Source: Rhodococcoides fascians A25f (lineage in GTDB: Bacteria; Actinomycetota; Actinomycetes; Mycobacteriales; Mycobacteriaceae). From it: a stretch of 64,000 bases of DNA. The stretch is from positions 1,763,501 through 1,827,500 of the forward strand of contig NZ_CP049744.1 in assembly GCF_000760935.2 (NCBI RefSeq). The letters are read 5' to 3'. A program made the position numbers and the translations under genes. Below the pieces are notes generated by a model. It was not told the DNA's origin. It ran no database searches and saw only the letters and a program-made list of their open reading frames with translations. Shown here one piece after another: positions 4,875 to 51,784 of the stretch (its first letter is position 1; every line of letters begins with the position of its first letter).

Positions 4875-4886
4875 TACTCGCTGGTA
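4875..4886. promoter_or_regulatory. 12-bp TACC...GTA dyad between fatty-acid genes
   Basis: TACTCGCTGGTA; the other strand reads TACCAGCGAGTA. It fits the consensus TACC-N-G-N-S-R-GTA also found at 26786, 51681, 51702, 51758 and 51773. It lies between the divergent acyl-CoA dehydrogenase and enoyl-CoA hydratase starts. Probably a TetR-type operator; the regulator is not identified. Confidence 0.6.
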
Positions 4887-4922
4887 ACAACCGTCCGAGA
4901 CGGGTGTGGCACTATGCGAACC

Positions 4923-5714
4923 ATGGCTGACGCACCCACTTCGCTCGTCCGATCCACCACCGATGCCGGCGCAGAGATCGCTGTGCTCACCTTCGACCAC
5001 GGTCCGCTCAACCTCTTCGACCAGGCCATGTTCGACGCGGTGGCCGCCGATATCGCCGATCTCGTCGCCAGTCCGCCCCGTGCAGTGCTGCTGCGCGCCG
5101 AGGGCAAGGTGAACTCGGCGGGCGTCGACGTGCACGTGTTCCAGGGTCTGTCCGCTGCGCAGGGTGCCGATCTGTGGCGTGGTTTGTTTGCCGACATCGC
5201 GCATCCGCTCGAAGCTCTGCCCTGCCCGGTGATCTACGCCGCGCACGGGTTGACGCTCACCGCGGCGTTCGAGATCTCGTTGGCCTGCGACATCATCCTC
5301 GCCGGTCCCAAGGCCAAGTTCGGTCTGGTCGAGACCGTCGTCGGGTTGACGCCGTCGATGGGTGGACCGCAGCGTCTGGCCGAGCGTGCCGGTTCGGGTC
5401 GGGCTCGCGAGCTCGTCATGACCGGAGATCTGTACGACGCGCAGACGCTGAAGGAGTGGGGCGTGGTCAATCAGATCCACGACGACGTCGACGCGGCGGC
5501 CCTCGCGCTGACCCATCGACTGGCCGACGGCCCCACCGTCGCGCACGCGGCAACCAAACAGATTGTGGCAGCGTGGCGTTCCGGTGGCGTGGCCCACGCG
5601 GACGAGATCACCTCGGAGGTCTCGGGCGCATTGTTCGAGACCGAGGATCTGCGCGGCGCGGTCGCGAGCTTCCTCGAGGTCGGCCCGGGTAAGGCGACGT
5701 ACACGGGCAAGTAG
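4923..5714 (+). CDS. Enoyl-CoA hydratase/isomerase family protein
   Basis: A crotonase-fold protein of 263 residues from ATG 4923 (an in-frame ATG at 4914 would add three). Numbered from 4914, the two glutamates that act in hydratases are present: E120 in TAAFEISLACD and E140 in GLVETVVGLTP. The oxyanion-hole segment at 68-73 reads NSAGVD. The usual glycine-rich GxxxGGG loop is changed to HGLTLTAAFE, so substrate or activity may be atypical. Probably hydrates or isomerises an enoyl-CoA made by the divergent acyl-CoA dehydrogenase. The downstream deaminase gene starts 10 nt later and could be co-transcribed. Confidence 0.85.
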   Translation: MADAPTSLVRSTTDAGAEIAVLTFDHGPLNLFDQAMFDAVAADIADLVASPPRAVLLRAEGKVNSAGVDVHVFQGLSAAQGADLWRGLFADIAHPLEALPCPVIYAAHGLTLTAAFEISLACDIILAGPKAKFGLVETVVGLTPSMGGPQRLAERAGSGRARELVMTGDLYDAQTLKEWGVVNQIHDDVDAAALALTHRLADGPTVAHAATKQIVAAWRSGGVAHADEITSEVSGALFETEDLRGAVASFLEVGPGKATYTGK

Positions 5715-5724
5715 AATCGTATGA

Positions 5725-6666
5725 GTGAGTAACGATCAGCTGGCCGAACTGCACCTGCACATCGAAGGGTCGCTCGAACCTCCGCTGATCTTCGATCTTG
5801 CCGAGCGCAACGCAATCACGCTGCCGTACAACGATATAGACGAACTACGCGCGAAGTACGAGTTCACGGACCTGCAGTCCTTCCTCGATCTGTACTACGC
5901 GAACATGGCCGTGTTGCAGACCGCCGAGGATTTCGCCGATCTGGCCCGGGCGTACTTCCGCCGCACCGCGCAGGCCGGGGTGACGCACGCGGAGATCTTC
6001 TTCGACCCGCAGGCGCACACCGAGCGCGGTGTACCGCTCCAGGCCGTCGTCGAGGGATTGGCCGACGCGTGTGCGACCAGTGAGCGCGAATTCGGCGTCA
6101 CCAGTGGGCTGATCGCGTCGATTCTGCGCGACAAGCCGGTACTGCACGCGAATCAACTGCTCGACGACCTGTTGGCGATGCAGGCTCCGATCATCGGCCT
6201 CGGTCTCGATTCCGCCGAAGTGGGCTACCCGCCGTCGCTGTTCGTCGATGTGTTCGCCAAGGCACGCGCCGAGGGTTTGCACGTGGTGGCTCACGCCGGT
6301 GAGGAAGGCCCGCCCGACTACATCTGGCAGGCACTGGATCTGCTGAAGGTCGAGCGCATCGATCATGGGGTTCGGTGCCTGGAAGACGAGGCACTGGTGA
6401 ATCGACTTGTCGAGGAACAGATTCCGCTCACCGTCTGCCCGCTGTCCAATGTCCGGCTCAAGGTGATCGACAACGTCGAGCAGCTGCCGTTGCGGCAGAT
6501 GCTCGAGCGCGGCCTGTCGGTGTCGATCAATTCCGACGATCCCGCCTACTTCGGCGGCTACGTCGACGACAACTTCTCTGCCCTCGAAGCGGGAATGGGC
6601 CTCACCGCGGCCGAGCGAAAGCAATTGGCCGAGAACTCGATTCGCGCGAGCTTCAGCACCTTGTAG
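5725..6666 (+). CDS. Adenine/adenosine deaminase-like amidohydrolase
   Basis: A 313-residue zinc TIM-barrel deaminase expected to convert adenine to hypoxanthine or adenosine to inosine (purine salvage, cytoplasm). Metal and catalytic residues: H10 and H12 (HLHIEG), H190 with the following AGEEGPP, H214 (RIDHGVR), and D271-D272 (NSDDPAYFGGY). The FFDPQAHTERGVP and SDDPAYFGGY segments resemble the bacterial type-2 subgroup, several members of which prefer adenine. The C-terminus stops at ...RASFSTL, some 15-20 residues earlier than usual. Start is GTG 5725. Its stop is one nucleotide from the convergent molybdoenzyme stop. Confidence 0.85.
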   Translation: MSNDQLAELHLHIEGSLEPPLIFDLAERNAITLPYNDIDELRAKYEFTDLQSFLDLYYANMAVLQTAEDFADLARAYFRRTAQAGVTHAEIFFDPQAHTERGVPLQAVVEGLADACATSEREFGVTSGLIASILRDKPVLHANQLLDDLLAMQAPIIGLGLDSAEVGYPPSLFVDVFAKARAEGLHVVAHAGEEGPPDYIWQALDLLKVERIDHGVRCLEDEALVNRLVEEQIPLTVCPLSNVRLKVIDNVEQLPLRQMLERGLSVSINSDDPAYFGGYVDDNFSALEAGMGLTAAERKQLAENSIRASFSTL

Positions 6667-6667
6667 A

Positions 6668-8155
6668 TCAGTTCGCCGTCACCGAGATCTTCGGGTAGCC
6701 GGTGGCTCCGTCGGGAACGGTGTCGGCGGTCTTGTTGGTCTGCAGTTCTCCGGCAGAGTTGGTGGCGCGGGCTCGGATGGAATGCTGGCCCGCAGCCAGA
6801 TCGAGCTCGACCGTCCATTGCCGCCAGGTGTCCTTGGAGTACTCCTCCGAGAGCGTGGCCGGCACCCAATTGCCCTCGTCCACCTGCACTTCCACGCCCT
6901 CGATACCGGTGTGCTGATTCCAGGCGACGCCCGCGACTACCGACTTCCCGGCGGGCACCGAGCTGCCCGATCGCGGGGTGTCGATGCGCGAGGCGGTCTT
7001 GATCGGTCCTAGAGCGCCCCAGCCTCGATCGGTCCAATACGCCGTCACCGTGTCGAAGCGGGTGATCTCGATGTCGGTGACCCATTTGGTCGCCGAGACG
7101 TATCCGTACAGACCCGGAACGACGAGCCGCGCCGGGTAGCCGTGCTCGACGGGCAGCGGTGCACCGTTCATCCCCACCGCCAGTAAGGCATCGCGGCCGT
7201 CGAGCAGAACCTCCAGGGGAGTGCCCGCGGTGAAGGCGTCACTGCTCGACGACAGAGCCATGTCGGCATCCGGCGAAATGCCTGCTTCCTCGAGAATGTC
7301 CTCGAGCGGGTAGCCGATCCACGTCGCGTTGCCCACGAGGTCGCCGCCGACGATGTTCGACACACAGGTCAGGGTGACCGTCTTCTCGACGGCCTGGCGC
7401 TGCGCCAGATCGGCGAACGTCAGCTCGATCTCGCGGTCGACCATGCCGTGTATCCGCAGCGACCACGTATCCGACGCCACCCGCGGCACGACCAACGCGG
7501 TATCGATGCGGTAGAAGTCCTCGTTCGGGGTGATGTACGACGCGAGGCCGTCGATCTGCAGATCTGCCCCGGCCGGTATCGGGGGCTGCGGCGTCGGGGT
7601 CGGAAGCATGAAGCCGAGTCGATCGGCGGTGACGGCGCGCGCCGAGGTGAGCATCCGTCCGGCCGTCCCGGCGACCACACCGAGTACCGCGGCACCGGCG
7701 GCGAGGGTCAGGAAGCTGCGACGGTTCATGCCCTCGGTCGCCGGGGTGGCGGCTCCGATGAGGGCGTGCAGCACGACGATGGCGACGATGACGCCGCCGA
7801 TGGTCGGGACTGCGTAGAAGGCCGTTGCGTCGGGTCGCGTCACCGCCGCGAGTACGCCGAGAACGCCCAGTGCTGCGAACACCACAGCACCGATCGGTTT
7901 GCGGGCGATGCCTGCTGCGGCGGCGATAGCAGCGATCACCACGGCCATGCCGACGAACAGGGCGAGCTTGTCGGAGGTGCCGAACGTGTCGATGGCCCAT
8001 TCACGGATCGGGGCCGGACTGTTGTCGACGGCCGAGGACCCGACGGCCGTCAGTGGCGACGAGTTCGGTCCGATGGGGACGGCGATCAATTCACCGACAC
8101 CGAGGACGACTCCGGCGGCGATGATGCCGGACAGCGCGCGTTTACCTGTGCTCAC
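6668..8155 (-). CDS. Membrane sulfite-oxidase-family molybdopterin oxidoreductase
   Basis: A 495-residue fusion of a multi-helix membrane region with a sulfite-oxidase-fold molybdopterin domain. About four hydrophobic segments (residues ~6-25, 60-80, 88-106, 112-132) precede a twin-arginine-like NRRSFLTLAAG stretch near 145 and a further hydrophobic segment. The molybdenum-ligating Cys is in TLTCVSN near 264, followed by GYPARLVVPGLYGY, and a C-terminal Mo-co dimerisation domain (about 390-495). Likely an extracytoplasmic oxidoreductase anchored in the membrane; the substrate is unknown. GTG 8155 is chosen because GGAGCGA lies just upstream; an in-frame extension to 8233 lacks such support. 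Confidence 0.85.
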   Translation of the reverse strand: MSTGKRALSGIIAAGVVLGVGELIAVPIGPNSSPLTAVGSSAVDNSPAPIREWAIDTFGTSDKLALFVGMAVVIAAIAAAAGIARKPIGAVVFAALGVLGVLAAVTRPDATAFYAVPTIGGVIVAIVVLHALIGAATPATEGMNRRSFLTLAAGAAVLGVVAGTAGRMLTSARAVTADRLGFMLPTPTPQPPIPAGADLQIDGLASYITPNEDFYRIDTALVVPRVASDTWSLRIHGMVDREIELTFADLAQRQAVEKTVTLTCVSNIVGGDLVGNATWIGYPLEDILEEAGISPDADMALSSSSDAFTAGTPLEVLLDGRDALLAVGMNGAPLPVEHGYPARLVVPGLYGYVSATKWVTDIEITRFDTVTAYWTDRGWGALGPIKTASRIDTPRSGSSVPAGKSVVAGVAWNQHTGIEGVEVQVDEGNWVPATLSEEYSKDTWRQWTVELDLAAGQHSIRARATNSAGELQTNKTADTVPDGATGYPKISVTAN

Positions 8156-8290
8156 TCGCTCCAATGTAAGCGTGCGCGGAGTGGCTGCGTGCACGGGACG
8201 CTCCACTCGAGGCGTTGGCCTGGGGAAACCCACTCCGAGGTCGCAGGAGTGGAGCAGAAATTGCGCCGCAACGTTACGCCGGTCGACCGC

Positions 8291-9604
8291 TCAGGACAGC
8301 AGGTGTTCGAGGTACTCGCTGCCGAACACCTTGTGCGGGTCCATCGAATCGCGGATGCGGAGGAAATCGTCGAAGTGCTCGCAGGAATCACGCAGTTGGT
8401 CGCCGCCGAGGGAGTGCAGTTTGCCCCAGTGTGGCCGGCCGCCGACGCTGCGGCAGATGTCCTCGACGGCGTCGAAGTAGTCGCGGTGATCGCGGCGGTG
8501 GTACTGGTGCACGGCGATGTAGGCCGTCGGGCGCCCGTAGGCCGTGGAGAGCCAGATGTCGTCGGCGGCGGCGAATCGTACTTCGACGGGAAACGCGATG
8601 GACATCGAAGACTGCTCGAGCCAGCGATCCACCTCGCGCAGCACCCGGCCGATCTCGGATGCCGGCACCGCATACTCCATCTCGACGAATCTGACCGTCC
8701 GCGAGGATGCGAACACTCGGTACGAGCGATCGGTGTACTCGCGGGCCGACAGTGCCCGGGCCGAGACCGCGTTGAGTCGAGGAATCAGGGCCGGCACCCG
8801 CGTCACCATGCGGTTGAGCCCCTCGAAGACCGTGTTGGACAGCAGCTCGTCGTCGAGGTACGAGCGCACCTTTCCCAGCGGGCGCAGCACGGCGTCTCCG
8901 GGCATGCGGGTGTTGCGTTTGGTCAGCACACGGTCGGTGTGTGGAAACCAGTAGAACTCGAAGTGGTCGACGGCAGCAACGGTGGTTTCGAGCTCGGCGA
9001 GCGTTGCCGTCAGCGTCGACGGTTCCTCGACGGCCCGCAGGGCGAACGCCGGAACGCAGTCGAGCGTGACTCGGGTGATGACGCCGAGCGCACCGAGGCC
9101 GATGCGGGCCGCGTCGAACAGCTCCGTGTTCTCGTCGCGGGAGCACCGGACGAGCCGGCCGTCCGCGGTCATCAGCTCCAGCGCATGCACCTGAGTGGCG
9201 ATGCCGCCGAAGCGGGCACCGGTTCCGTGGGTGCCCGTGGAGATGGCTCCCGCAACGGACTGTTCGTCGATGTCGCCGAGGTTGGTCATGGCCAGGCCGA
9301 GATCCCACAGCCGCGCGGTCAGCTCGCGCAGCCGAGTGCCGGCGAGCACCGTCACCCGGGCGGAACCGTCGTCGTCGCGGACGACCGATTCGATCCCACG
9401 CAAGGAATCGAGGCTGATCTGAACGCCGTCGGTGACAGCGATCGGAGTGAAGGAGTGACCGGCCCCGACGCATCGCACCGACCGAGACCGATCGACGGCG
9501 CCCCGAAGAACGCTGCGCACTTCGTCCACCGATGCGGGCTCGGCACGATGCGCCGGATATGCCTGCTGATTGCCCGCCCAGTTCTGCCACGACCGCTCGA
9601 TCAT
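8291..9604 (-). CDS. FAD-linked aldonolactone oxidoreductase (gulono/arabinono-lactone type)
   Basis: A 437-residue flavoprotein: a VAO/PCMH-type FAD domain (about 15-180, with VGAGHSFTPIAV) followed by an ALO domain ending with the family's HWGK near residue 389. Such enzymes oxidise L-gulono-1,4-lactone or D-arabinono-1,4-lactone; the M. tuberculosis homologue Rv1771 is a gulonolactone dehydrogenase of similar size. ATG 9604 begins MIERSWQNW; the longer frame to 9766 runs through the repeat-bearing intergenic region and across the divergent TetR start, so it is rejected. The ribosome site is weak. It is divergent from the TetR gene, with a PLP aldolase gene beyond, a neighbourhood I recall from mycobacteria. 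Confidence 0.88.
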   Translation of the reverse strand: MIERSWQNWAGNQQAYPAHRAEPASVDEVRSVLRGAVDRSRSVRCVGAGHSFTPIAVTDGVQISLDSLRGIESVVRDDDGSARVTVLAGTRLRELTARLWDLGLAMTNLGDIDEQSVAGAISTGTHGTGARFGGIATQVHALELMTADGRLVRCSRDENTELFDAARIGLGALGVITRVTLDCVPAFALRAVEEPSTLTATLAELETTVAAVDHFEFYWFPHTDRVLTKRNTRMPGDAVLRPLGKVRSYLDDELLSNTVFEGLNRMVTRVPALIPRLNAVSARALSAREYTDRSYRVFASSRTVRFVEMEYAVPASEIGRVLREVDRWLEQSSMSIAFPVEVRFAAADDIWLSTAYGRPTAYIAVHQYHRRDHRDYFDAVEDICRSVGGRPHWGKLHSLGGDQLRDSCEHFDDFLRIRDSMDPHKVFGSEYLEHLLS

Positions 9605-9634
9605 CGAATCACTATCGCACTCCCGAAACCGCAG

Positions 9635-9657
9635 GGTCGTTCCGCAGGCTCCACTCC
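9635..9657. repeat. Dispersed intergenic repeat, copy 3
   Basis: The exact 23-bp core also found at 3652-3674 and 51513-51535. Here it is flanked on both sides by the same short word CACTCCCGAAACC (9619-9631 and 9653-9665), overlapping the repeat's 3' end. It lies between the divergent lactone dehydrogenase and TetR genes. Function unknown. Confidence 0.75.
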
Positions 9658-9727
9658 CGAAACCTCGGGTTCGCGCCCCGTGGATCAATATGGGGCACAG
9701 ACTTCGGCAGCCCCCTAGTATCGGGTC

Positions 9728-10369
9728 ATGCAATCGAGGCTGCCCGCGGATGTGCGACGCGCACAACTGGTGCAGTCGGCGATCGACGTCGCCGAGCGGG
9801 TGGGTATCGAGTCCCTGACGGTGCGCGCGCTCTCAGAGTACGCCGACGTCACCAAGGGCATCGTGCAGTACCACTTCGAGACCAAGCAGGATTTGGTGAT
9901 CGCGATGGGGGAGCACCTCATCGTCGACGTCACCGAGATTCTCCACGCGGCGCTGGACAGCGCTGTCGGTACCCGAGAATTGCCAGGAGTTCGGGGTCTG
10001 CGCGAGCTGGTGCACGGCGGGCTGAGCGCAGTGTGGTTGTTGATCGAGAAGTCGCCGGATCGGCAGTTGCTCGCATACGAGATCAAGACCTACCTGCTGC
10101 GGCATCGCGCGCTCGGGTCCGCCACCGCGGCCGAGATCGCCAATGGTCAGTACCGGATTCGGGACTCCGAGGCCCGGTTGTTCTTCGAGAAGTGCTCCGA
10201 TCACACCGGCACGAGATGGCTCGAGCCGGTGGAGTCGATCGCGCGTTTCGGGATGGCGACGCTCGACGGGCTGGTGCTGCGGTGGCTGGTCGACGGTGAC
10301 GACCTCGAGGTGCTGGCTCAGATCGACGACCTGTCCGGGCTGATCGCGGGCAAAGCCCTGGACCGTTGA
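9728..10369 (+). CDS. TetR-family transcriptional regulator
   Basis: A 213-residue TetR repressor. The N-terminal helix-turn-helix (about 10-56) has the usual SLTVRALSEYADVTKGIVQYHF recognition architecture, with IVQYHFETKQDL closing it. The C-terminal ligand/dimerisation region is not assigned. Start is ATG 9728. It is divergent from the aldonolactone dehydrogenase and 76 nt upstream of the PLP aldolase gene, so it may regulate either. No convincing operator was seen apart from an imperfect CGAAACC/GGGTTCG dyad around 9658-9673 next to the dispersed repeat. Confidence 0.88.
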   Translation: MQSRLPADVRRAQLVQSAIDVAERVGIESLTVRALSEYADVTKGIVQYHFETKQDLVIAMGEHLIVDVTEILHAALDSAVGTRELPGVRGLRELVHGGLSAVWLLIEKSPDRQLLAYEIKTYLLRHRALGSATAAEIANGQYRIRDSEARLFFEKCSDHTGTRWLEPVESIARFGMATLDGLVLRWLVDGDDLEVLAQIDDLSGLIAGKALDR

Positions 10370-10445
10370 GTGCTCGCCGGGACTTCTCGGCTGCGGAGTG
10401 TTTGACTGTGTGGGCCCGGCAACGACGACGAAGGAATGTTGAAGT

Positions 10446-11660
10446 ATGAGTTCGATCGCCGGTGTCGTCACCTCCGACACGACACCACTCTCTCGGATAG
10501 CCGCTGCCACCGAGGGTCTCGAATCTCCCTTGGCTGCAGTCGATTCGGTCGCTCTCGATGCCAATGCGGCGGCGCTGCGAGCGCGAGCGAAGGGGGTGCC
10601 GATTCGGATCGCCAGCAAGTCAGTGCGCTGCCGAGCCGTCCTCGATCGGGTGCTCGCAACAGAAGGCGTGAGCGGGGTCATGGCGTACTCGCTGCGTGAG
10701 GCGGTGTGGCTCGCGCGCCAGGGGGTCGAGGACATCCTGATGGGCTATCCGAGTGTCGACCGCACGGCTCTCGCCGAGGTCGTCAACGATCGAGTTCTGT
10801 CGGGTCGCATCACACTGATGGTCGACGACGTCGCGCAATTGGACATCGTGCGCGACGCCACCCGCAGCGACCTTCTCAAGCCCCGTATCTGTATCGATGT
10901 CGATGCCTCGCTGCGGATCGGGCCGCTGCACATCGGGGTCAGGCGTTCTCCGCTGCGCGATCCCGAGCAGGTTGCCGCCTTCGCGCGGGTGGCGCACTCG
11001 CGGGGGTTCCGGGTCGTCGGTCTGATGTTCTACGAGGCGCAGATCGCCGGTGTGCCTGATTCCAATGTCGCGGTGGAGTGGATGAAGTCGCTGTCGTCCC
11101 GTGAGATCTCCACGCGCAGAAGGGCAGTGGTCGAGGCGGTGTCCGCGGCGGTGGGTCACATCGAGATCGTCAACAGCGGCGGCACCGGGTCGATCGACTT
11201 CTCGGCCGCCGATCCGGTCGTCACCGAGGTCACCGCCGGATCGGGTCTGTTCGCGCCGACGCTGTTCGACCGGTATCGCGCCTTCTCTGCCGAGCCGTCG
11301 CTGTTCTTCGCTCTGTCCGCGGTGCGCAAGCCGACCCCGCAGATCGCAACGTTGTTCGGTGGTGGCTACATCGCGTCGGGTCCTGCGTCGGGGTCCCGAT
11401 CCCCGAGGCCGGTGGCGTGGTCGAGAAAGGCCGCCGGAGTAGTGACGTCCGGGCTGAAGCTACTGCGCAACGAGGGTGCCGGTGAGGTGCAGACTCCGGT
11501 GAGCGGGGCCGACGAGGTGCACATCGGTGATCGCGTCTGGTTCCGGCACGCCAAGGCGGGCGAGCTGTGCGAGCGATTCGACACCCTGCATCTGGTGCAC
11601 GCCGACGGATCTGTCGAGCCGGTCCCCACCTACCGCGGCGAGGGTATGGCGTTCGGCTGA
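10446..11660 (+). CDS. PLP-dependent amino acid aldolase/deaminase (D-threonine aldolase-like)
   Basis: A 404-residue fold-type III PLP enzyme: an alanine-racemase-like barrel with the PLP lysine in RIASKSVRC (near residue 58) and a C-terminal beta domain with the family's RHAKAGELCERF segment (His and Cys typical of the D-serine dehydratase/D-threonine aldolase metal site). It probably cleaves or deaminates a D-beta-hydroxy amino acid; the actual substrate is unknown. ATG 10446 has a GAAGGAA site. A homologue sits near the gulonolactone dehydrogenase gene in mycobacteria (Rv1769 region, from memory). Its 3' end overlaps the convergent helicase-nuclease gene by 31 nt. Confidence 0.85.
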   Translation: MSSIAGVVTSDTTPLSRIAAATEGLESPLAAVDSVALDANAAALRARAKGVPIRIASKSVRCRAVLDRVLATEGVSGVMAYSLREAVWLARQGVEDILMGYPSVDRTALAEVVNDRVLSGRITLMVDDVAQLDIVRDATRSDLLKPRICIDVDASLRIGPLHIGVRRSPLRDPEQVAAFARVAHSRGFRVVGLMFYEAQIAGVPDSNVAVEWMKSLSSREISTRRRAVVEAVSAAVGHIEIVNSGGTGSIDFSAADPVVTEVTAGSGLFAPTLFDRYRAFSAEPSLFFALSAVRKPTPQIATLFGGGYIASGPASGSRSPRPVAWSRKAAGVVTSGLKLLRNEGAGEVQTPVSGADEVHIGDRVWFRHAKAGELCERFDTLHLVHADGSVEPVPTYRGEGMAFG

Positions 11661-15079: not shown

Positions 15080-15160
15080 AAGTGCCCACCCTAGCCATCG
15101 ACGACAGCGGCGCCGGTCACGTTGCGCGCGAATGCCGACGAGAGGAGGCAAAATGATCGA

Positions 15161-15778: not shown

Positions 15779-15790
15779 CCCGAGAACCGA

Positions 15791-15822
15791 GAAAGGGCCC
15801 GGCGTGCACGCCGGGCCCTTTC
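15791..15822. terminator. Strong bidirectional intrinsic terminator
   Basis: A perfect 14-bp stem: GAAAGGGCCCGGCG at 15791-15804, loop TGCA, complement at 15809-15822, then TTTT on the plus strand and AAAG-rich sequence that gives a T-run on the minus strand. It separates the convergent hydrolase and acyl-CoA synthetase genes. Confidence 0.92.
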
Positions 15823-15835
15823 TTTTGTGTTCGAT

Positions 15836-26785: not shown

Positions 26786-26797
26786 TACCAGGGAGTA
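26786..26797. promoter_or_regulatory. 12-bp TACC...GTA dyad upstream of dehydrogenase pair
   Basis: TACCAGGGAGTA, fitting TACC-N-G-N-S-R-GTA and one base different from the reverse strand of the 4875 site. It lies 43 bp before the acyl-CoA dehydrogenase ATG and 25 bp before the divergent phosphatase start, a position suitable for repression. Inferred operator. Confidence 0.6.
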
Positions 26798-26839: not shown

Positions 26840-28015
26840 ATGAATCTTGCCCTGACAGAAGAAGAGGCCGCGTTCCGTGACGAGATGCGGACGTTCTTCA
26901 CTACGAAGTTCCCCGCCGAGATTCGCGAGAAGAGCGCGACGGGTCAGGAGTTGAGCAAGGACGAGGTGGTCACGACCATGCGAATCCTCAACGAGAACGG
27001 CCTGGCGGTGCCGCACTGGCCCACCGAGTTCGGTGGCCGCGACTGGACCGCCGTGCAGCGCCACATCTGGCTCGACGAAATGCAGCTGGCGTCGGTGCCC
27101 GAGCCCCTGGCCTTCAACGCCTCGATGGTCGGCCCGGTCATCGCGACGTTCGGCTCTCAGGAGCTCAAGGAGAAGTTCCTGCCGAAGACGGCGAACCTCG
27201 ACATCTGGTGGTGCCAGGGCTTCTCCGAGCCCGAGGCCGGATCGGACCTGGCGTCGCTGCGCACCACCGCTATTCGAGACGGTGACGACTACATCGTCAA
27301 CGGGCAGAAGACGTGGACCACGCTCGGCCAGTACGCCGACTGGATCTTCGCGCTCGTGCGGACCAACCCGGACGCGCCGAAGAAACAGGCCGGAATCTCC
27401 TTCCTGCTCATCGATCTGAACACCCCCGGCATCGAGATGCGGCCCATCAAGCTGATCGACGGCAGCGTCGAGGTCAACGAGGTCTTCTTCGACAACGTTC
27501 GCGTTCCGGCCGAGAACCTCGTCGGCGAGGAGAACCAGGGTTGGAGCTACGCCAAGTTCCTGCTCGGTAACGAGCGCACCGGCGTCGCCCGGGCCGGACA
27601 CACCAAAGTGCATCTGGGACAGGCGAAGAAGCACGCCGCGCAGACCAAGGTGGGCAGCGGCACGCTGCTCGAGGATCCACTGTTCGCGGCCAAGATGGCC
27701 GAGGTCGAGAACGAACTGCTCGCCCTCGAGCTGACTCAGCTGCGCCTGGTGTCCAGCTCGGACGACGGCAAGCCGAATCCGGCCTCGTCCATTCTCAAGC
27801 TGCGGGGATCGGAATTGCAGCAAGCCACAACCGAATTGCTGATGGACGTCGCCGGCCCGGACTCGCTGCCCTACGAGGCGGGCGAGGACATCGAGAGCGA
27901 AGGCTGGGCGCAGCGCTCGGTACCGGGGTATCTCAACTACCGCAAGGTGTCGATCTACGGCGGCTCGAACGAGGTTCAGCGCACCATCATCGCCTCGGCG
28001 ATTCTCGGACTGTAA
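26840..28015 (+). CDS. Acyl-CoA dehydrogenase, catalytic-type subunit
   Basis: A 391-residue acyl-CoA dehydrogenase. The FAD/substrate signature QGFSEPEAGSDLASLRT (about 126-142) and the C-terminal SIYGGSNEVQRTII are present. The MCAD-position Glu is replaced (YGGSNE), but E245 in LGNERTG sits where mycobacterial heteromeric enzymes (FadE26/FadE28 type) have their base. Together with the next gene it probably forms an alpha2-beta2 dehydrogenase like those acting on steroid side chains or other bulky acyl-CoAs. TTGGAGGAT precedes ATG 26840. A TACC-type operator candidate lies upstream. Confidence 0.9.
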   Translation: MNLALTEEEAAFRDEMRTFFTTKFPAEIREKSATGQELSKDEVVTTMRILNENGLAVPHWPTEFGGRDWTAVQRHIWLDEMQLASVPEPLAFNASMVGPVIATFGSQELKEKFLPKTANLDIWWCQGFSEPEAGSDLASLRTTAIRDGDDYIVNGQKTWTTLGQYADWIFALVRTNPDAPKKQAGISFLLIDLNTPGIEMRPIKLIDGSVEVNEVFFDNVRVPAENLVGEENQGWSYAKFLLGNERTGVARAGHTKVHLGQAKKHAAQTKVGSGTLLEDPLFAAKMAEVENELLALELTQLRLVSSSDDGKPNPASSILKLRGSELQQATTELLMDVAGPDSLPYEAGEDIESEGWAQRSVPGYLNYRKVSIYGGSNEVQRTIIASAILGL

Positions 28016-28031: not shown

Positions 28032-29159
28032 ATGGATTTCGAACTCAACGAAGAGCAGAAGCTGCTGCGCGACACCACTCGTGAGGTCCTCACGCGGGCC
28101 TACGACACCGAGAAGCGCAACAAGATCGTTGCCGGTGAGCTGGGTTGGAGCACCGACGTCTGGAAGCAGCTGGCCGAGGTCGGCCTGCTGGGTCTGACGT
28201 TCAGCGAGGAAGACGGCGGCATGGACGCCGGTCCCGTGGAGATCATGGCGGTGATGACCGAGGTCGGACGACGCCTCGCACCCGAGCCGATTCTCGATGC
28301 CGTCCTCGTTCCGGGCGGGTTGATCTCCGAGCTCGGCAGTGCCGAGCAGCGCTCGCGGCTCCTGCCGCCGGTGGCCGAGGGATCGTCGATGCTGGCGTTC
28401 GCGCACAACGAATCCGGCAGTCGCTGGCCCAACATCGAGGTCGCCACCACGGCCACCGAGGACGGTGGGTCCTGGTCGATCAACGGTGTCAAGAATCCGG
28501 TACCGCACGGCGGTAGCGCCGACGTGATCGTCGTCAGTGCAGTGCTTCCCGCCGGAGGAACCGGACTGTTCGTCGTCGACGCCGACGCGACGGGTCTCAC
28601 GCGCAAGTCCTACGCCACGCACGACGGTCAGCGCGCCGCACAGATCGAATTCGTGGACGTCGCGGCCGAGCCGCTCGGCACCGCCGAGAACGCAGCTGCC
28701 GCGATCACCGGTGCCGAGGTGCGGGCGCAGGCTGCGCTGTGTGCAGAGGCAATCGGTGCGATGGAAGAAGCGCTGCGCCTGACCACCGATTACCTCAAGG
28801 CGCGCAAGCAGTTCGGGGTTCCGCTGGCCAAGTTCCAGGCGCTCACGTTCCGCGCTGCGGACATGTACGTGCTGCTCGAGCTCGCCCGCAGCATGAGCCT
28901 TTACGCCACGATGTCACTGTCCGACGGCAACGTGGACACGACGATCGCGTCGCGGGCGAAGCTGCAGATCTCGCGGTCCGGGCGCAAGCTCGGCCAAGAG
29001 GCGATTCAGTTGCACGGCGGCATCGGCGTCACCGCCGAGTATCCGGTCGGGCACTACACCAGTCGGCTCGTGGCCATCGAGCACACTCTCGGTGGTGCCG
29101 ACGAGCACCTGCGCATCCTGGCGTCGAAGGTCTCCGATCACGATCTCATCGGGATCTGA
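28032..29159 (+). CDS. Acyl-CoA dehydrogenase, partner subunit
   Basis: A 375-residue acyl-CoA dehydrogenase homologue starting 16 nt after the previous gene. It keeps FAD/dimer segments (KARKQFGVPLAKFQA near 257-271, QLHGGIGVTAEY near 330) but lacks both usual catalytic glutamates, and its first signature is degenerate (FAHNESGSRWPN). That matches the non-catalytic partner in mycobacterial heterotetrameric FadE pairs, which contributes FAD contacts across the interface. So it should function only with its neighbour. A very strong terminator follows. Confidence 0.88.
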   Translation: MDFELNEEQKLLRDTTREVLTRAYDTEKRNKIVAGELGWSTDVWKQLAEVGLLGLTFSEEDGGMDAGPVEIMAVMTEVGRRLAPEPILDAVLVPGGLISELGSAEQRSRLLPPVAEGSSMLAFAHNESGSRWPNIEVATTATEDGGSWSINGVKNPVPHGGSADVIVVSAVLPAGGTGLFVVDADATGLTRKSYATHDGQRAAQIEFVDVAAEPLGTAENAAAAITGAEVRAQAALCAEAIGAMEEALRLTTDYLKARKQFGVPLAKFQALTFRAADMYVLLELARSMSLYATMSLSDGNVDTTIASRAKLQISRSGRKLGQEAIQLHGGIGVTAEYPVGHYTSRLVAIEHTLGGADEHLRILASKVSDHDLIGI

Positions 29160-37329: not shown

Positions 37330-37379
37330 GTGTCCCACCGTAGCGAATGCGTGTTGTGCAGCGCATTTGAATCTCGATA

Positions 37380-37403: not shown

Positions 37404-37431
37404 ACGTCCCTTTGCTTATCGAGAGGTAACC

Positions 37432-38714: not shown

Positions 38715-38729
38715 ATTGTTTGTGTGGGC

Positions 38730-40169: not shown

Positions 40170-40175
40170 GGGGTA

Positions 40176-40204
40176 AGTGTATCGAACGTGCGTTCGAGTG
40201 GCAA
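40176..40204 (-). promoter_or_regulatory. SOS promoter: LexA box between -35 and -10
   Basis: On the minus strand: -35 TTGCCA (40204-40199), 17-nt spacer, -10 TACACT (40181-40176). The spacer contains TCGAACGCACGTTCGA (40197-40182), a perfect TCGAAC-N4-GTTCGA match to the mycobacterial LexA box. Predicted +1 coincides with the ATG at 40169. Confidence 0.85.
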
Positions 40205-42013: not shown

Positions 42014-42140
42014 TATCGGAGTGTTCTCCCGCAGCGACGAAGGCAAACCCGCGTCCGGAGCATGGCCGGCTGGTGAACACTGTGGCCGACCCAGGCGCGC
42101 CTTACTTGACCACCGACCATCCATCGCATGGACTGACCCG

Positions 42141-43793: not shown

Positions 43794-43811
43794 CACGCCA
43801 TACTGGACAGC

Positions 43812-45533: not shown

Positions 45534-45631
45534 CGGGCTTCGAATCGTTCGTTCGGACGATTGTGACGATTCGGGCGCGAGACTAGCGTCGCGTTCGGAA
45601 CGTGTTCGACGGAATCGAAGAGGAGTACAGC

Positions 45632-45844
45632 GTGAAGCGTCGTATTGCTGTCGTGTTGGGAGCCGCAGTCATCGCCGTAGCATCGCCTGCGGTCGCGGTA
45701 GCCGATACCGGAAGCGCAAGCACCGGTAGCTCGAGCGGAGCGATTTCGGATCTGTCTCGGTTGTGGGAGGCCTGCGCGCTCACCATCTTCACGGGACAGT
45801 GCACCGGAATCGTGGCCACGATTCCTCAGTACAACCTCCCCTGA
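45632..45844 (+). CDS. Small secreted protein of unknown function
   Basis: A 70-residue protein from GTG 45632, preceded by GAAGAGGAG. It has a classical Sec signal (KRR, hydrophobic 5-20, likely cut after PAVAVA near 24) leaving a mature peptide of about 46 residues with a Ser/Gly-rich start and two cysteines in EACALTIFTGQCTG, able to form one disulfide. Mycolic-acid actinomycetes encode many such short exported peptides of unknown role. The in-frame GTG at 45602 would add ten residues ahead of the signal and is less likely. Confidence 0.7.
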   Translation: MKRRIAVVLGAAVIAVASPAVAVADTGSASTGSSSGAISDLSRLWEACALTIFTGQCTGIVATIPQYNLP

Positions 45845-45877
45845 ACCGACAAACGCGCGCGCATTCGCCAGACGCTT

Positions 45878-45927
45878 GCGGAATGGGTAACCATTCCGCG
45901 AGCATCCAGCAAACGCGCGCGCGTTTG
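45878..45927. terminator. Tandem palindromes between convergent genes
   Basis: First hairpin GCGGAATGG-GTAA-CCATTCCGC (45878-45899); second an 18-bp perfect palindrome built from CAAACGCGC (45910-45927). The word AAACGCGCGCGC also occurs at 45851-45862. They lie between the small secreted protein and the carboxylase stop and probably terminate both. Confidence 0.7.
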
Positions 45928-45941
45928 CGTCGAGCCAGGCC

Positions 45942-48900
45942 CTACTTTGCCAGCGACCGCGCCATTCCGCGTTCGATGGCGGCGACCAGCTGCGGGCGCA
46001 GTTCGGCGGCGGGGACGATGTGGTGCACCGATCCGACGTTCTGCGCGCGCTGGATGTTGTGGATGGCCTCGAATTCGGCTGCCACTTCACCCAGTTTGGC
46101 GTTGCGGGCGTTCGCTCGCACGGTGCCGAGCTCGACGCGCAGGGCCGAGCGGGTGGCGTCGTCCTCGGCTGCGTTCAGTCGTGCTTCGAGTTCCTTGACC
46201 TCGGAGTCGGCTGCGGTGCGGGCGTTGACGTCGCGGGTGAACACCACTGCTGCTGCCGGGGCACCGCCGAGTACGGAGGCGAAGGACCCCTCGACGGCGA
46301 GGACTTCCATGTTGTCGTTGAGCGCTCCGGAGAACACCACGAACGCGCCGCCGTGGTAGCGCGAGACGACACAGAACACGACCGGTCCGTCGAAGTTGAC
46401 GATGGCGCGGCCGATTTCGGCTCCGTATTCGAGCTGGATGTTGCGCAGCGATTCCGGTGATCCGTCGAAGCCGGAGAGGTTTGCCAGCACCACGATCGGC
46501 CGGCTTCCGCTGGCGGCGTTGATGGCGCGAGCGGTCTTCTTCGACGAGTTCGGGAACAGGGTGCCCGAGGTCCACTGATCGGGGCCGTCGGAGGGGAACC
46601 AGCCCTTGCGGGGGATGGCCCGTGACTCGATACCGATGACGGACACCGGGATTCCGGCGAGGTGGGCGTCGAACACCACGGAGGTGTCGGCGTCGGCCAT
46701 GTCGGCCCAACGCTCGAGCACCGAGTGGTCCTGGTCCACCACGGCGCGCATCACGGTGCGAATGTCGAACGGCTTCTTGCGGTCGGGGTTGGTGACCGAG
46801 GAGAAGATGTCGCCGACGGTGGTGAAGTCGCTCGACGGGTGCACGTGCGGGTAGGTGCGCACGTCGCGCTCGGTCGGGTCCGCGGTGGCTGCTCGACGTG
46901 GGAAGCGTTCTCCCGGAGCCGCATACGCGTGGTCGTAGTGCGCGAACAGGATGTCGCACGCGGCCCGCAGGTTCGGTGCCCAGTACTGCGCCTGGCCGTT
47001 GGGGCCCATGACGCGGTCGTAGCCGCCGATACCGAAGTTGTCCTCGGCCGAGACGCCACCGGAGTAGTCCAGGGACTGCTTTCCGGTGAGCACCATCGCA
47101 CTGTCGGGGGTCATCACCAGGATGCCCTTGGTGTGGGTGAGCATGGTGGCTTCGGCGTTCCAGTACGGCTGTGCGCCGACGTTGATGCCCGCGACCACGA
47201 TGTTGATCTCACCGCCGGCCTGGGTGAAGGTGATGATGCGACGCAGGCCGCGCGAGACCCAGTCCATGTTCTCGGTGCCCGATTCCATGGAAATCGTTGC
47301 ACCGGAGGACAATGCGAACCACTCGACAGGTGCGCCGAGTTGCTCGGCGAGGTCGATGGCCGCGACGATCCGCGAGCACTCGGCTTCGGCGACGGTGCCG
47401 AGTGCCTTGGTCGGGTCGCCGAACAGTGCGACGCGGGTGATGCCCTCGGGGTACTTGGCGGTCGGTGTGGTCGCGAGACCGACGATGACGCCTGCGGTGT
47501 TGCGGCCGTACGGACGATCGACCGGTGCGAGTACGCCGTCGGCGTCGAAGTCGTACTCGGTGAACGTGCCACCGTTGCTGCTCAGCAACGGAATCAACTC
47601 GTACGGGTACACGGTGCCGCGGGCTTGGGAGCGTTGCACCTTCTGGGTGTACTCGTCGAGTGGACGCATCGGCTCGGTCGGCGGCGGGGTGATCTTGGCG
47701 ACGATGCCTGCGCCGGATCGATACGACAGGCGCAACGCGACCTCGCGCGGTGTTGCGCCGGGTGTTTCGGCCAGGCGAGCGATGAGAGTGATCTCCTCGA
47801 GGCCTGCCCCGATCGTCAGCGGCGCGATGTGCCGGGCGATGGTGGCGATGCGGTCGGCAGGCACGTTCAGTACCGGCCAGACGTAGAGCACGACGCGGTT
47901 GGCGTCGAGGCGTTTCTTGCCGCGTCCGGCCTGGGCGCGGCGGATTCCGTCGAGGCAGGCTGCGACGGTGCGTTCGATCTCGGGTACGGCGACGATGTTG
48001 CCTGCGTCATCCAACTGTGTTGTGACACCGCGGATCTCGGCCAGGGCAACCAGTCGCTCGTCGGAGGGGTTGGCCTTCGACGTCAGGTGGAACAGGTACG
48101 TTCCGGCACTGGCAGGCAGGCGAACTCCGTCGAAGTTCTTCAGTCGCCACAGGTCCAGTCGCTGACCGGTCAGCGGGTGCATGTCCCGGATGATCGTGTC
48201 CTCGGCGAGGGGCTCGGATCCCTCGACCGTGGTGCGGCGGTAGGTCATCTTTCGGGTCGCGGATCCGAAGGCGGTCACGGTGACGCGACGCCAGCGGCCG
48301 GTGCTCGGGTGCGCGGCCAGTGCAGCCTGGAGTTGTTCCGAGAGGGCGTCGCCGTCCGTCGGCGCGTCCGGCCAGGACAGGTAGAGGTCCACGGCCAGGT
48401 GCTCCGGTGACGGCCCGGCGATGTCCTCGACAGCGTCGAGAGTGGCTGCGAGAGAATCGAAGTCGGTAGCCGTGGAGACAAGGTGCAGTCGCTCGCCCGA
48501 GAGCTCGAAGTTACCGGTGACGAAGTGCTTGCCGTCGCGGTCGAAGGCCTTGACGTCTTCGAGGGTGCGGATCTCGTAGTACTGGCGGGTGATCACCTCG
48601 AGCAGGGCACCGGGATCGGTGATCCGTTGTGCCAGCAGCTCGATCAACGGTTCCGGGGTAGCGACGAGAGCGGCAACGCGCGCCGAGTAATCGGCGGCGT
48701 CGGGGTTCTCGGCGAGGTACTGCAGGCTGCCGCGGACTCCGTCGTAGATCTTCTCTCGTGCGGTGCGGATCTGCGGCTCGTCGAACAGTCGGAAGCGCAG
48801 GTTGCGGGCGACGTCGCCGATGACGGGGTAGCGGGCCTGGGTGGCACCGATGAGTCGTTCGAGTACCTCGGCCATGGCCGGGGTGGCGTCGGGTTGTTCC

Positions 48901-51419
48901 GAGCAATCGCTGAGCCAGTGGCCGAGCAGAGCGGCGATGACCGGAACCTGGTTCTCCATGCGCTGCAGGGCGAGGAAGACGCGGTAGACGGCTTCTTCGA
49001 GCTCGGGTGTGCGACCTTCGTCGATGGCGGCGTCGTAGTGCGCCAGGGCGCGAGTGAGCTTGCCCCGGAACGATTCCGGCAGTCCCTGCACGTCTGCGTC
49101 GAGCGACTGCATGAACGAGTGGAAGTGCTCGCGAGGGGAGTGGACGCGCTCGTCGTTGCTCTCCTCGTCCATCGTCGGTCGGTTGCGCGAGAGTTCGCAG
49201 ATATCGGCGAATGTGTTCAGCAACGACAGTTCGGCACCGACGAGCTCCGAGTCGTTCCGCGGCACGTCGGCACGCAGAGTCTCGTAGGTGGACAACAGGT
49301 TTCGTGCGCGGGCTCCGCTGACGTCGAAACCGGTGATGAGTGCTGCGAGCTCGTCGAGGCGGTCCAGGGCGCGGCGTTGCGGCGAGCGCTGCGCGGCGTC
49401 GTCGATGCCACGGAACTGCACGCGCGGTGCCTGCTCGGAGACCTTCTGCTCACCGGCTTGATCGACGCGCAGCAGGGCCGCTCCCGCGTCGACCTGTCCG
49501 TTGACCGAGGCCAGCACCTCACGCACGGTGCCCGCGTACGGGGACCGGACGGCAGTTTCCATTTTCATCGACTCGAGGACGACGAGGGTCTGTCCCGCTT
49601 CGACGTCGTCTCCGACGGCGACCGGGACGGCGACGACGACGGCGGGGGCCGGTGCGCGGACCAGCCCGGCCTCGTCCTGGGAGATCTGGTGGCTGATGCC
49701 GTCGACCTCGACGAGGAAGTGGGCGGCTCCGGCGACGGTGACGACCTGGTAGCGACGGTCGCCGATGACCAGACGGCTCTCGTAGGTGCCGAGGCGTTCG
49801 ACGTCGACCTGCAACTCCCCGATGGCATCTCCGTCGATGCTGTAGCGGTGCGTGCCGGTCTGGCCTACTTCGATCTTGTAGGCCTGGCCCTGGTAGTTCA
49901 GTTCGACGGTGCGGCCGATGGCATGGGTGGCGCGCGGACGACCACCGCGAGCGGAGTTGAGGAACGCGGTGCGCTCGCGGCCCTCCTCGGCGTCGTAGGC
50001 ATCGATGGCCGCGGCGATGATGGCGATGTCCGCGACGGCCGTCGGGCCCACCTGGGAGCCGGCCTCGGTGCGGTCGAGCCAGCCGGTGTCGGCGGAGGCG
50101 GAGATGACTTCCTCGCGGTCGAGCAGGCTCAGCAGGAACGACTTGGTGGTGGTGCCGCCGTCGATGACGACGGTGGTCTCGCGTAGTGCGTTCCGCAACC
50201 GTGCGAGAGCTTCGCTGCGGTCGCGGCCCCAGGCGATCACCTTGGCGACCATCGAGTCGTAGTCGGGCGGGATCACGTCGCCCTGGGCGATACCGGTGTC
50301 GACGCGGATGCCGGTGCCGAGCGGGAACTTGAGCAGCTCGACCGTGCCGGGGGCCGGCGCGAAGCCGTTGTCGGCGTCCTCGGCGTTGAGGCGGGCCTCG
50401 ACGGCGTGACCGAACTCGGTGGGGCACTCGCCGGGCAGTGCTTGACCGTCGGCGACGAGGATCTGCAGCTTCACCAGGTCTATGCCGGTGGTGTACTCGG
50501 TGATGGGGTGCTCGACCTGGAGGCGGGTGTTGACCTCGAGGAACGTGAAGATCTTCTGCTCGGGCTGGTACAGGTACTCGACGGTGCCTGCGCCCTGGTA
50601 GCCGGCGGCTTTGACGAGCTCGGCGGACGCGGTGCGGAGCTGATCGGCCTGTTCCTTGGTCAGCAGCGGCGAGGAGGACTCCTCGATGACCTTCTGATTG
50701 CGGCGCTGGATCGAGCAGTCGCGCACACCCGGAGCCCAGACGTTGCCGTGGCTGTCGGCGATGACCTGTACCTCGACGTGGCGGGCATCGGTGACCAGAC
50801 GCTCCAGGAAGACGACCGGGTCGCCGAACGAACGCTCGGCCTCGCCCTGGGTGCGTTCGAGGGAGAGTTCGAGTTCGTCCTCGTGGAAGACCTTGCGGAT
50901 ACCGCGGCCACCGCCGCCGGAGCGGGCCTTGATGATCAGCGGGTAGCCGATCGCCGCTGCGTGACGACGGGCATCGGCGCGGGTCTCGACCGGTCCACCG
51001 GACCACGGTGCGACGGGGACGCCGACCTTTTCGGCGAGGATCTTCGCTTCGACCTTGTCGCCGAGCAGACGCATCGCGTCCGCGGACGGGCCGATGAAGG
51101 TGATGTTCAGTCGGGCGACGAGATCTGCGAACGTCGGGTCCTCGGCGACGAAGCCCCAGCCGACCCACACCGCGTCGGCACCGGACTCCACCAGCGCCGC
51201 CTCGAGGACGCTGTAGTCGAGGTACGCCGAGCCGCTTGCGGGCTTACGCAGCGTGACGGCCTCGTCGGCCTGGCGGACGAACATGGCCCGCTTCTCCGCC
51301 TCGGTGTGCAGCGCTACGGTGCGGATGCCGTAATCGTGTTCGGCGTTGAGCTCTCGGACGGCTCGGATCAGCCGTACTGCTGCCTCGCCTCGGTTGACTA
51401 CTGCAATCCGCTTGAACAA
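45942..51419 (-). CDS. Single-chain multidomain acyl-CoA carboxylase
   Basis: A 1825-residue biotin-dependent carboxylase carrying all activities in one chain. Residues 1-460 are biotin carboxylase (RIAVVNRGEAAVRLIRA, ATP-grasp loop with ARSGGGGRGIRK, ERLVTDARHVEVQ). A BCCP domain has the biotin lysine in ESMKMET near 618. About 450 residues of central helical region follow, then carboxyltransferase N and C halves (about 1230-1825; YPYELI, ATISMESGTENMDW, GRAIVNFDGPVVFCV, LNDNMEVLAVEGS). The order and central insert recall eukaryotic ACC. The product is malonyl-CoA or a longer carboxyacyl-CoA. Start is TTG 51419 with AAGAGAGA upstream. Confidence 0.9.
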   Translation of the reverse strand: MFKRIAVVNRGEAAVRLIRAVRELNAEHDYGIRTVALHTEAEKRAMFVRQADEAVTLRKPASGSAYLDYSVLEAALVESGADAVWVGWGFVAEDPTFADLVARLNITFIGPSADAMRLLGDKVEAKILAEKVGVPVAPWSGGPVETRADARRHAAAIGYPLIIKARSGGGGRGIRKVFHEDELELSLERTQGEAERSFGDPVVFLERLVTDARHVEVQVIADSHGNVWAPGVRDCSIQRRNQKVIEESSSPLLTKEQADQLRTASAELVKAAGYQGAGTVEYLYQPEQKIFTFLEVNTRLQVEHPITEYTTGIDLVKLQILVADGQALPGECPTEFGHAVEARLNAEDADNGFAPAPGTVELLKFPLGTGIRVDTGIAQGDVIPPDYDSMVAKVIAWGRDRSEALARLRNALRETTVVIDGGTTTKSFLLSLLDREEVISASADTGWLDRTEAGSQVGPTAVADIAIIAAAIDAYDAEEGRERTAFLNSARGGRPRATHAIGRTVELNYQGQAYKIEVGQTGTHRYSIDGDAIGELQVDVERLGTYESRLVIGDRRYQVVTVAGAAHFLVEVDGISHQISQDEAGLVRAPAPAVVVAVPVAVGDDVEAGQTLVVLESMKMETAVRSPYAGTVREVLASVNGQVDAGAALLRVDQAGEQKVSEQAPRVQFRGIDDAAQRSPQRRALDRLDELAALITGFDVSGARARNLLSTYETLRADVPRNDSELVGAELSLLNTFADICELSRNRPTMDEESNDERVHSPREHFHSFMQSLDADVQGLPESFRGKLTRALAHYDAAIDEGRTPELEEAVYRVFLALQRMENQVPVIAALLGHWLSDCSEQPDATPAMAEVLERLIGATQARYPVIGDVARNLRFRLFDEPQIRTAREKIYDGVRGSLQYLAENPDAADYSARVAALVATPEPLIELLAQRITDPGALLEVITRQYYEIRTLEDVKAFDRDGKHFVTGNFELSGERLHLVSTATDFDSLAATLDAVEDIAGPSPEHLAVDLYLSWPDAPTDGDALSEQLQAALAAHPSTGRWRRVTVTAFGSATRKMTYRRTTVEGSEPLAEDTIIRDMHPLTGQRLDLWRLKNFDGVRLPASAGTYLFHLTSKANPSDERLVALAEIRGVTTQLDDAGNIVAVPEIERTVAACLDGIRRAQAGRGKKRLDANRVVLYVWPVLNVPADRIATIARHIAPLTIGAGLEEITLIARLAETPGATPREVALRLSYRSGAGIVAKITPPPTEPMRPLDEYTQKVQRSQARGTVYPYELIPLLSSNGGTFTEYDFDADGVLAPVDRPYGRNTAGVIVGLATTPTAKYPEGITRVALFGDPTKALGTVAEAECSRIVAAIDLAEQLGAPVEWFALSSGATISMESGTENMDWVSRGLRRIITFTQAGGEINIVVAGINVGAQPYWNAEATMLTHTKGILVMTPDSAMVLTGKQSLDYSGGVSAEDNFGIGGYDRVMGPNGQAQYWAPNLRAACDILFAHYDHAYAAPGERFPRRAATADPTERDVRTYPHVHPSSDFTTVGDIFSSVTNPDRKKPFDIRTVMRAVVDQDHSVLERWADMADADTSVVFDAHLAGIPVSVIGIESRAIPRKGWFPSDGPDQWTSGTLFPNSSKKTARAINAASGSRPIVVLANLSGFDGSPESLRNIQLEYGAEIGRAIVNFDGPVVFCVVSRYHGGAFVVFSGALNDNMEVLAVEGSFASVLGGAPAAAVVFTRDVNARTAADSEVKELEARLNAAEDDATRSALRVELGTVRANARNAKLGEVAAEFEAIHNIQRAQNVGSVHHIVPAAELRPQLVAAIERGMARSLAK

Positions 51420-51506
51420 CGTATCTCTCTTCGCTCGGTATGGGCGCACTTCGTCGGTGCACTCTCGATGGAACGTGGATTGGTGCTGAGCATGTCCGTT
51501 CATGTG

Positions 51507-51540
51507 TCATCGGGTCGTTCCGCAGGCTCCACTCCTACGC
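51507..51540. repeat. Dispersed intergenic repeat, copy 4
   Basis: 34 bp identical to 3646-3679, sharing the 23-bp core with 9635-9657. It lies 88-121 bp upstream of the carboxylase start, in the predicted leader. Confidence 0.8.
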
Positions 51541-51680
51541 TCATGCAGCACTCCGACCGACCTATTCTAACTGCAATGCGCCCCCGTGCATCGCCAACGA
51601 CGTTCGGCGTGAGTGTGATTGATCACCAAGATCGGAATTATCCTCTGTGACAACCTATTTCGACTCCCTTCGGACGGTGC

Positions 51681-51713
51681 TACCGGGCAGTAACACTCTC
51701 GTACCCGCGAGTA
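51681..51713. promoter_or_regulatory. Pair of TACC...GTA dyads (sites A and B)
   Basis: TACCGGGCAGTA (51681-51692) and TACCCGCGAGTA (51702-51713), 21 bp start to start, about two helical turns. They lie just upstream of the -10-like box at 51638-51643 on the carboxylase strand. Inferred operators. Confidence 0.6.
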
Positions 51714-51757
51714 GCGTTGGCGTAACAGCTAATTCGCTGTTCGGACACCCACGTTCC

Positions 51758-51784
51758 TACCGGCGAGTACATTACCGGTGGGTA
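51758..51784. promoter_or_regulatory. Pair of TACC...GTA dyads (sites C and D)
   Basis: TACCGGCGAGTA (51758-51769) and TACCGGTGGGTA (51773-51784), 15 bp start to start. Same consensus as sites A and B and as 4875 and 26786. Spacing differs from the A/B pair. Confidence 0.6.

Follow-up and report, generated by a model that had tools for sequence, protein, structure and literature searches.

A palindrome of the form TACY-N4-RGTA, found upstream of a single-chain acetyl-CoA carboxylase (ACC) gene and of the fatty acid synthase gene (fas) of Rhodococcoides fascians A25f, is probably the operator of the regulator FasR; we put the probability that the sites at these two promoters are FasR operators at about 0.7. 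Six copies of the palindrome are located in the window (the whole stretch of 64,000 nucleotides analyzed here; Table 1). Judged from sequence comparison, the motif represents a real, conserved operator family, and its conservation in orthologous promoters is the decisive evidence for the sites.

Table 1. Genes and putative regulatory sites in the window.
Coordinates	Strand	Feature	Basis
3688..4833	-	acyl-CoA dehydrogenase; 41 bp between site 4875 and gene start	
4875..4886		putative operator flanked by divergent genes for an acyl-CoA dehydrogenase and an enoyl-CoA hydratase, TACCAGCGAGTA	28/29 promoters
4914..5714	+	enoyl-CoA hydratase/isomerase; 27 bp between site 4875 and gene start	
26786..26797		putative operator upstream of acyl-CoA dehydrogenase pair, TACCAGGGAGTA, different centre	promoter conservation
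26840..28015	+	acyl-CoA dehydrogenase, PimC-like (below PimC model cut-off); 42 bp between site 26786 and gene start	
28032..29159	+	acyl-CoA dehydrogenase, second gene of the pair	
45942..51503	-	single-chain multidomain acetyl/acyl-CoA carboxylase, 1853 aa	Pfam BC, biotinyl, ACC_central, CT
51681..51692		fourth match in ACC promoter, TACCGGGCAGTA, unconserved	promoter comparison
51702..51713		putative ACC promoter operator 3, TACCCGCGAGTA	genus conservation
51758..51769		putative ACC promoter operator 2, TACCGGCGAGTA; in ACC sense TACTCGCCGGTA	genus conservation
51773..51784		putative ACC promoter operator 1, TACCGGTGGGTA, in tandem with 51758	genus conservation
51835..52509	-	TetR-family regulator adjoining the carboxylase; rejected as motif regulator	motif kept without TetR nearby
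52532..52547		palindrome CGCACGGTTCCGTGCG ahead of the TetR gene, perhaps the operator of this TetR	14/16 paired

Six palindromic sites in the window

The initial annotation had described six 12-bp dyads next to genes for an acyl-CoA dehydrogenase and an enoyl-CoA hydratase, a dehydrogenase pair and a giant carboxylase, and had regarded their number as a notable excess. All six were detected, all of them are intergenic, and the window contains no further match to TACCNGNSRGTA. The neighboring genes were also correctly recognized, the giant carboxylase being an ACC with an ACC_central domain. The palindromes look like the type bound by TetR dimers, as had been suggested, and the context of acyl-CoA genes had also been rightly noted.

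Shuffled sequences contained TACCNGNSRGTA 0.05 times on average, compared to six matches in the window, from which the pattern itself had been derived. The looser symmetric pattern TACYN4RGTA returned the same six places; in shuffles it had a mean of 0.31 and a maximum of 3, and none of 100 shuffles reached six. Eleven controls, palindromes built alike apart from their outer triplets, matched 0 to 9 times each and 26 times in total; only two of these matches were non-coding versus all six of the motif sites; the non-coding share of the window is 7.6%, as determined with a simple gene finder and two hand-set gene boundaries. Genome-wide, 32 strand-hits were found versus 22 for the reversed control, a modest excess, and 21 places versus 16 for TACYNGCNRGTA. 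Compared to random sequence the excess was confirmed, but some controls match the window equally often, and over the whole genome the excess is small. Position gives a clearer picture, 16 of the 21 strict places in the genome being non-coding. The site count is supported by the shuffles and is not unique given the control palindromes, and the count alone was dropped as proof because of these controls and the small genome-wide excess. No literature match to the letter strings of the 12-mers was found.

A conserved operator array upstream of the carboxylase gene

The carboxylase contains the Pfam domains in the order BC, BCCP, central and CT in one chain, which is the make-up of the SACE_4237 type. 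Its ACC_central match is only a partial one and scores low, at 32.5 bits against a cut-off of 23.2, and eukaryotic ACC1 chains match the protein in four stretches. The gene is present in all 37 genomes of the genus that were searched.

Promoter sets of at most 30 loci each were taken from these 37 genomes, the most divergent genomes being under-represented. At least three sites, a tandem pair and a third site, are located upstream of the gene in 29 of the 30 ACC loci fetched. The tandem pair (operators 1 and 2) has a spacing of 15 bp, or of 12 bp in the divergent loci L089, L090 and L281, and one of these two spacings is found in all 29 loci. Operators 2 and 3 are usually 56 bp apart (55-57), and 67 or 43 bp in divergent loci. 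In total, the motif occurs 90 times in these promoters versus 0-3 times for each of the 11 control palindromes. The match at 51681 is in place only in the own genome (L061) and in L063 among the 29 array-bearing promoters. The initial annotation had treated the six sites as one class, which does not agree with the lack of conservation at 51681 and with the differing centre of site 26786.

The exception without an array, L088, is a 93%-identical carboxylase copy truncated by a contig end in genome G165, which also has a 98%-identical copy outside the 30 fetched loci. Second copies of the giant carboxylase were seen at G159:C1:102065 and G156:C1:1063656 in addition to the one on G165:C3 (L088), the fetched L088 having no operator array. 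No sigma-70-like promoter was detected at the carboxylase gene by a scan.

An alignment of the arrays, into which 22 of 27 loci could be fitted without indels (the other five were dropped), showed that the columns outside the sites are 43% identical between two clades of 13 and 9 loci. The identity of 1.00 at the TAC and GTA columns is circular, the arrays having been selected by the pattern, and was excluded as evidence. In an order-wide draw of 29 carboxylase loci the sole member of the genus, L281, carries the array; it is absent from the 28 loci of other genera, seven of which have one strict site and 21 none. Loci from another genus (g62) contain a perfect palindrome, TACCGGCCGGTA, about 90-100 bp upstream of the matched carboxylase start in L299, L300, L302 and L304, that is in four of the five loci fetched, L303 being the one in which it is absent. 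A nucleotide search of plasmid records with the region gave partial matches only, none of them covering 80% of the query.

Conserved sites elsewhere in the genome

The regulon had been proposed to be local. Conserved sites were, however, also found elsewhere in the genome, before fas, a FadE-type gene and the isocitrate lyase gene, and since such sites precede the FadE-type dehydrogenase and isocitrate lyase genes, the regulon is predicted to be genome-wide.

Downstream of one strict genomic site lies an open reading frame of more than 3,000 amino acids, which we take from its sequence to be fatty acid synthase I; its N-terminal piece yielded no NCBIfam hit at E 1e-20. All 30 fas promoters fetched from the genus contain a motif site near -200, mostly together with an imperfect second site 46 bp upstream of the strict one. 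Across genera a site was found in 57 of 79 named fas loci, a count obtained with a looser threshold and without a control, and in none of ten Aeromicrobium loci.

The FadE-type acyl-CoA dehydrogenase promoter has the motif in 30 of 30 loci, with two sites each. At the isocitrate lyase gene, the product of which scored above the family cut-off, the motif is present in 29 of 30 promoters, and control palindromes are frequent there as well (TGA-type 27, GTA-type 10, CAT-type 5). The TGA-type, TGA[CT]N4[AG]TCA, with its 27 occurrences in these 30 promoters (L370-L399), is possibly a second operator. Two matches in the own genome, both candidate sites, are located before a membrane Fe-S protein gene, and a third candidate lies between genes for a thiolase and a FabG-type reductase. 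Some of the genes discussed here presumably correspond to those named fadE5, fadA2, fabG4, etfD and Rv0238 in M. tuberculosis. The remaining places lie near genes to which we gave no name or no link to lipids, except for one beside L020, where the neighbor is an acyl-CoA-dehydrogenase-like gene without an NCBIfam name.

These data bear on the possibility that the sites are chance matches or core promoter elements without a common regulator, a view with which the frequency of some controls in the window and the small genome-wide excess agree. We consider this explanation highly improbable: six sites were not reached in any shuffle, the motif is kept in 26-30 of 29-30 orthologous promoters at seven loci, each control palindrome occurs 0-3 times per locus set (isocitrate lyase excepted), and the sites of the ACC array persist between clades with strongly differing spacers. 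As far as the promoters of the carboxylase, fas and FadE-type genes are concerned, it is refuted; 51681 alone fits chance. The comparison of orthologous promoters suggested in the initial annotation favored the motif (29/30 at the ACC gene, 28/29 at site 4875).

The TetR gene next to the carboxylase

The TetR-family protein encoded at 51835 had been named as a candidate regulator, which would bind the motif and control the carboxylase as well as both dehydrogenase loci. In 13 of the 30 genus loci a TetR gene with 86-100% identity indeed precedes the carboxylase, and all 13 bear the array. In the other 17 loci, however, the 1.5 kb fetched upstream contains no relative of this TetR, and the array is kept in all but one of them; L281 also keeps the array without such a relative. 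In a genome-wide search in which 19 candidates were scored per genome, relatives were found in 67 of 151 genomes of the family, and genomes G005, G036, G056 and G116 had no match at E 1e-20, yet they carry the three-site array (L281, L081, L082 and L084). Conversely, the motif is missing around 28 of 30 fetched TetR-family loci, and the two loci with a motif nearby are both beside the carboxylase. Since the recognition segment SAGTFYTYF is also unlike that of FasR, it is very unlikely that this TetR protein is the regulator of the motif.

The promoter of the TetR gene had been reported to contain a different palindrome, and CGCACGGTTCCGTGCG was found there. It is identical in L063 and has one change in L064, whereas the remaining 10 of the 13 loci that have a TetR gene of this type gave no match to it; it is possibly the operator of the TetR protein itself. 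At 52803-57866 (plus strand) the window encodes a large helicase-like protein that is weakly similar to the anti-phage families ProA and Hhe (169.9 bits, cut-off 1500). What by eye appears to be the N-terminal part of this protein is found, divergent, near the carboxylase in L074, L083 and L031.

FasR is the best candidate

The hint that the regulator could be encoded elsewhere seems to have been right, and FasR would be the best candidate. Its gene is located at C1:3540577-3541170, and proteins above the curated NCBIfam cut-off for FasR are encoded in all 37 genomes of the genus. Compared to FasR of M. tuberculosis, 131 of 197 aligned positions are identical; the recognition segment AGVSKPVLYQHF is identical in both proteins, and residues 77, 98, 106, 123 and 163 (tunnel, spine and helix) are the same. 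In M. tuberculosis the protein recognizes three inverted repeats at fas-acpS, from which it is displaced by long-chain acyl-CoA (PMC7652896 and PMC7382501).

The DNA co-crystallized with M. tuberculosis FasR is a 25-mer, according to part of PMC7382501. We found that this 25-mer contains two motif 12-mers, TACCCGTACGTA and AACTCGCCAGTA, 13 bp apart and each with 7 of 8 motif positions; such a pair occurred in 5 of 400,000 random 27-mers. Operator 3 of the ACC promoter reads TACTCGCCAGTA in several relatives, and most of the strongest TACY-N4-RGTA sites have a GC centre. Neighboring FasR dimers are juxtaposed on one DNA in the crystal, although disorder of the DNA there prevents base contacts from being discerned (PMC7382501). 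Tandem sites as defined by the strict test are present in 29 of 30 carboxylase loci versus none of 30 fas loci of the genus. No motif site was found in 4.6 kb around fasR of the own genome.

A precedent for the control of ACC genes by FasR comes from Corynebacterium glutamicum (parts of PMC6460773 and PMC8790568). FasR control of a single-chain ACC was not found stated in titles and abstract beginnings of the open-licence papers listed by our searches, nor in passages of PMC5356441, the one paper among them that covers both FasR and long-chain acyl-CoA carboxylase. MadR was rejected as the regulator, since its consensus differs from the motif.

The dehydrogenase sites and FasR-like paralogues

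Site 4875 recurs in all but one of 29 orthologous promoters, a 53%-identical paralogue (L167) having been left out of the 29. Its distance to the two start codons (27 and 41 bp) would suit repression, and the site probably belongs to FasR. Site 26786 was matched in 26 of 30 promoters, in 25 of them in the same register; in the promoter sets of these two sites the misaligned L192 was counted as a miss, and the match in L194 is in a shifted register. The centre of site 26786 is AGGG-like, unlike the GC centre, and the site may belong to a FasR-like paralogue.

This paralogue is encoded at C1:5354094-5354693, scores 95 bits with the FasR model and has 3f1b as its closest PDB sequence. In all 30 genus loci fetched for it, the paralogue gene itself has TTACYGTGGAGTAA-type sites in its promoter, and in L357 the 12-mer in this promoter is identical to that of site 26786. 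Because of this identity, the single motif of the initial annotation may merge the operators of two related regulators. A second FasR-like paralogue was found at G000:C1:4356417-4356983 (L277; about 104 bits), with similar-scoring matches in other genomes of the genus; the 5.5 kb fetched around it contained no motif site.

We give about even odds to a division in which FasR acts on fas and the carboxylase, and the paralogue at C1:5354094-5354693 on some or all of the beta-oxidation sites, among them 26786 and possibly also those at 4875 and in the FadE-type promoter. The sites in the paralogue's own promoter and the L357 identity agree with it, as do the position of its gene about 2.4 kb from the TACTGGCGAGTA site between the thiolase and FabG-type reductase genes and the similarity of the recognition segments (SKPVLYQHF vs SKPMLYLYY). 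Two weight matrices, one derived from the fas sites and the other from the sites in the paralogue's promoter (a weak comparison, as each was built from one locus) point in the other direction for FadE-type (18 v 9), isocitrate lyase (18 v 11) and 4875 (12 v 8), which are nearer to the fas matrix. Scored in the same way, site 26786 hardly distinguishes between the two matrices (12.1 v 11.6), ACC sites 1-3 give 10.6 v 7.1, 14.6 v 6.6 and 16.4 v 6.8, and 51681-type matches lean to the paralogue matrix (9.6 v 11.1). Two FasR-like paralogues with related recognition helices could share the motif, and such a division refines the FasR explanation, with which it is compatible.

Discussion

We propose that FasR governs a eukaryote-type single-chain ACC together with fatty acid synthase I. 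Two FasR dimers would probably bind next to each other at 51758/51773, the tandem pair, and a single dimer at the third site (51702). Through the site that both promoters share, the malonyl-CoA-making carboxylase would be coupled to fatty acid synthase I. With long-chain acyl-CoA bound, FasR would leave the DNA, and the carboxylase and fas would be turned down, as published for mycobacterial fas. Binding by FasR, activation rather than repression and the ligand response are inferred for these sites.

The regulon may join fatty acid synthesis and breakdown. It is possible, though we regard it as doubtful, that FasR, with or without the paralogue, is a FadR-like global switch that responds to the acyl-CoA level, acting as an activator of the single-chain ACC and of fatty acid synthase I and as a repressor of beta-oxidation and the glyoxylate shunt. 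The repressed set would then consist, just as tentatively, of the acyl-CoA dehydrogenase/enoyl-CoA hydratase pair, the FadE-type dehydrogenase, the thiolase/reductase pair and isocitrate lyase, with one palindrome for all. This raises the question whether mycolate-making bacteria use one acyl-CoA-sensing motif for fatty acid synthesis and breakdown. The sites provide a concrete predicted operator map for lipid control in relatives of Rhodococcus, which are studied for oil production. The kind of operator is already known; what is new is the single-chain ACC as a target, and also the possibility that synthesis and breakdown are controlled jointly.

SACE_4237 of Saccharopolyspora erythraea is a homodimeric multidomain ACC of about 200 kDa, eukaryote-like, which provides malonyl-CoA for fatty acid synthesis (PMC6491548, in part); the terms TetR, FasR and "transcriptional regulator" are absent from the main text of that paper. 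The window carboxylase is like SACE_4237 in size and in its ACC central region, a likeness by domain make-up that leaves its activity putative.

FasR of C. glutamicum, with fasO sites at accBC, accD1, fasA and fasB, is likewise a TetR-type regulator that couples acetyl-CoA carboxylase to fatty acid synthase, a likeness in function as published. It differs in being a repressor of a two-subunit ACC, and the C. glutamicum control genome matched the FasR model only below the cut-off. Closest is FasR of M. tuberculosis and M. smegmatis (Rv3208) with three operators at fas-acpS, an orthologous regulator with nearly the same operator 12-mers. The two systems share sites upstream of fas, several sites per promoter and, probably, the juxtaposition of dimers seen in the crystal. 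In contrast to the mycobacterial system, for which only fas-acpS is named as a target in the parts of the literature available, the main multi-site target here is the single-chain ACC gene, and the motif also precedes beta-oxidation and glyoxylate-shunt genes. In E. coli, a single acyl-CoA-sensing regulator, FadR, a member of the GntR family, controls both fatty acid synthesis and breakdown. FasR as proposed here would resemble FadR only if the reading of joint control holds, while protein and motif are unrelated.
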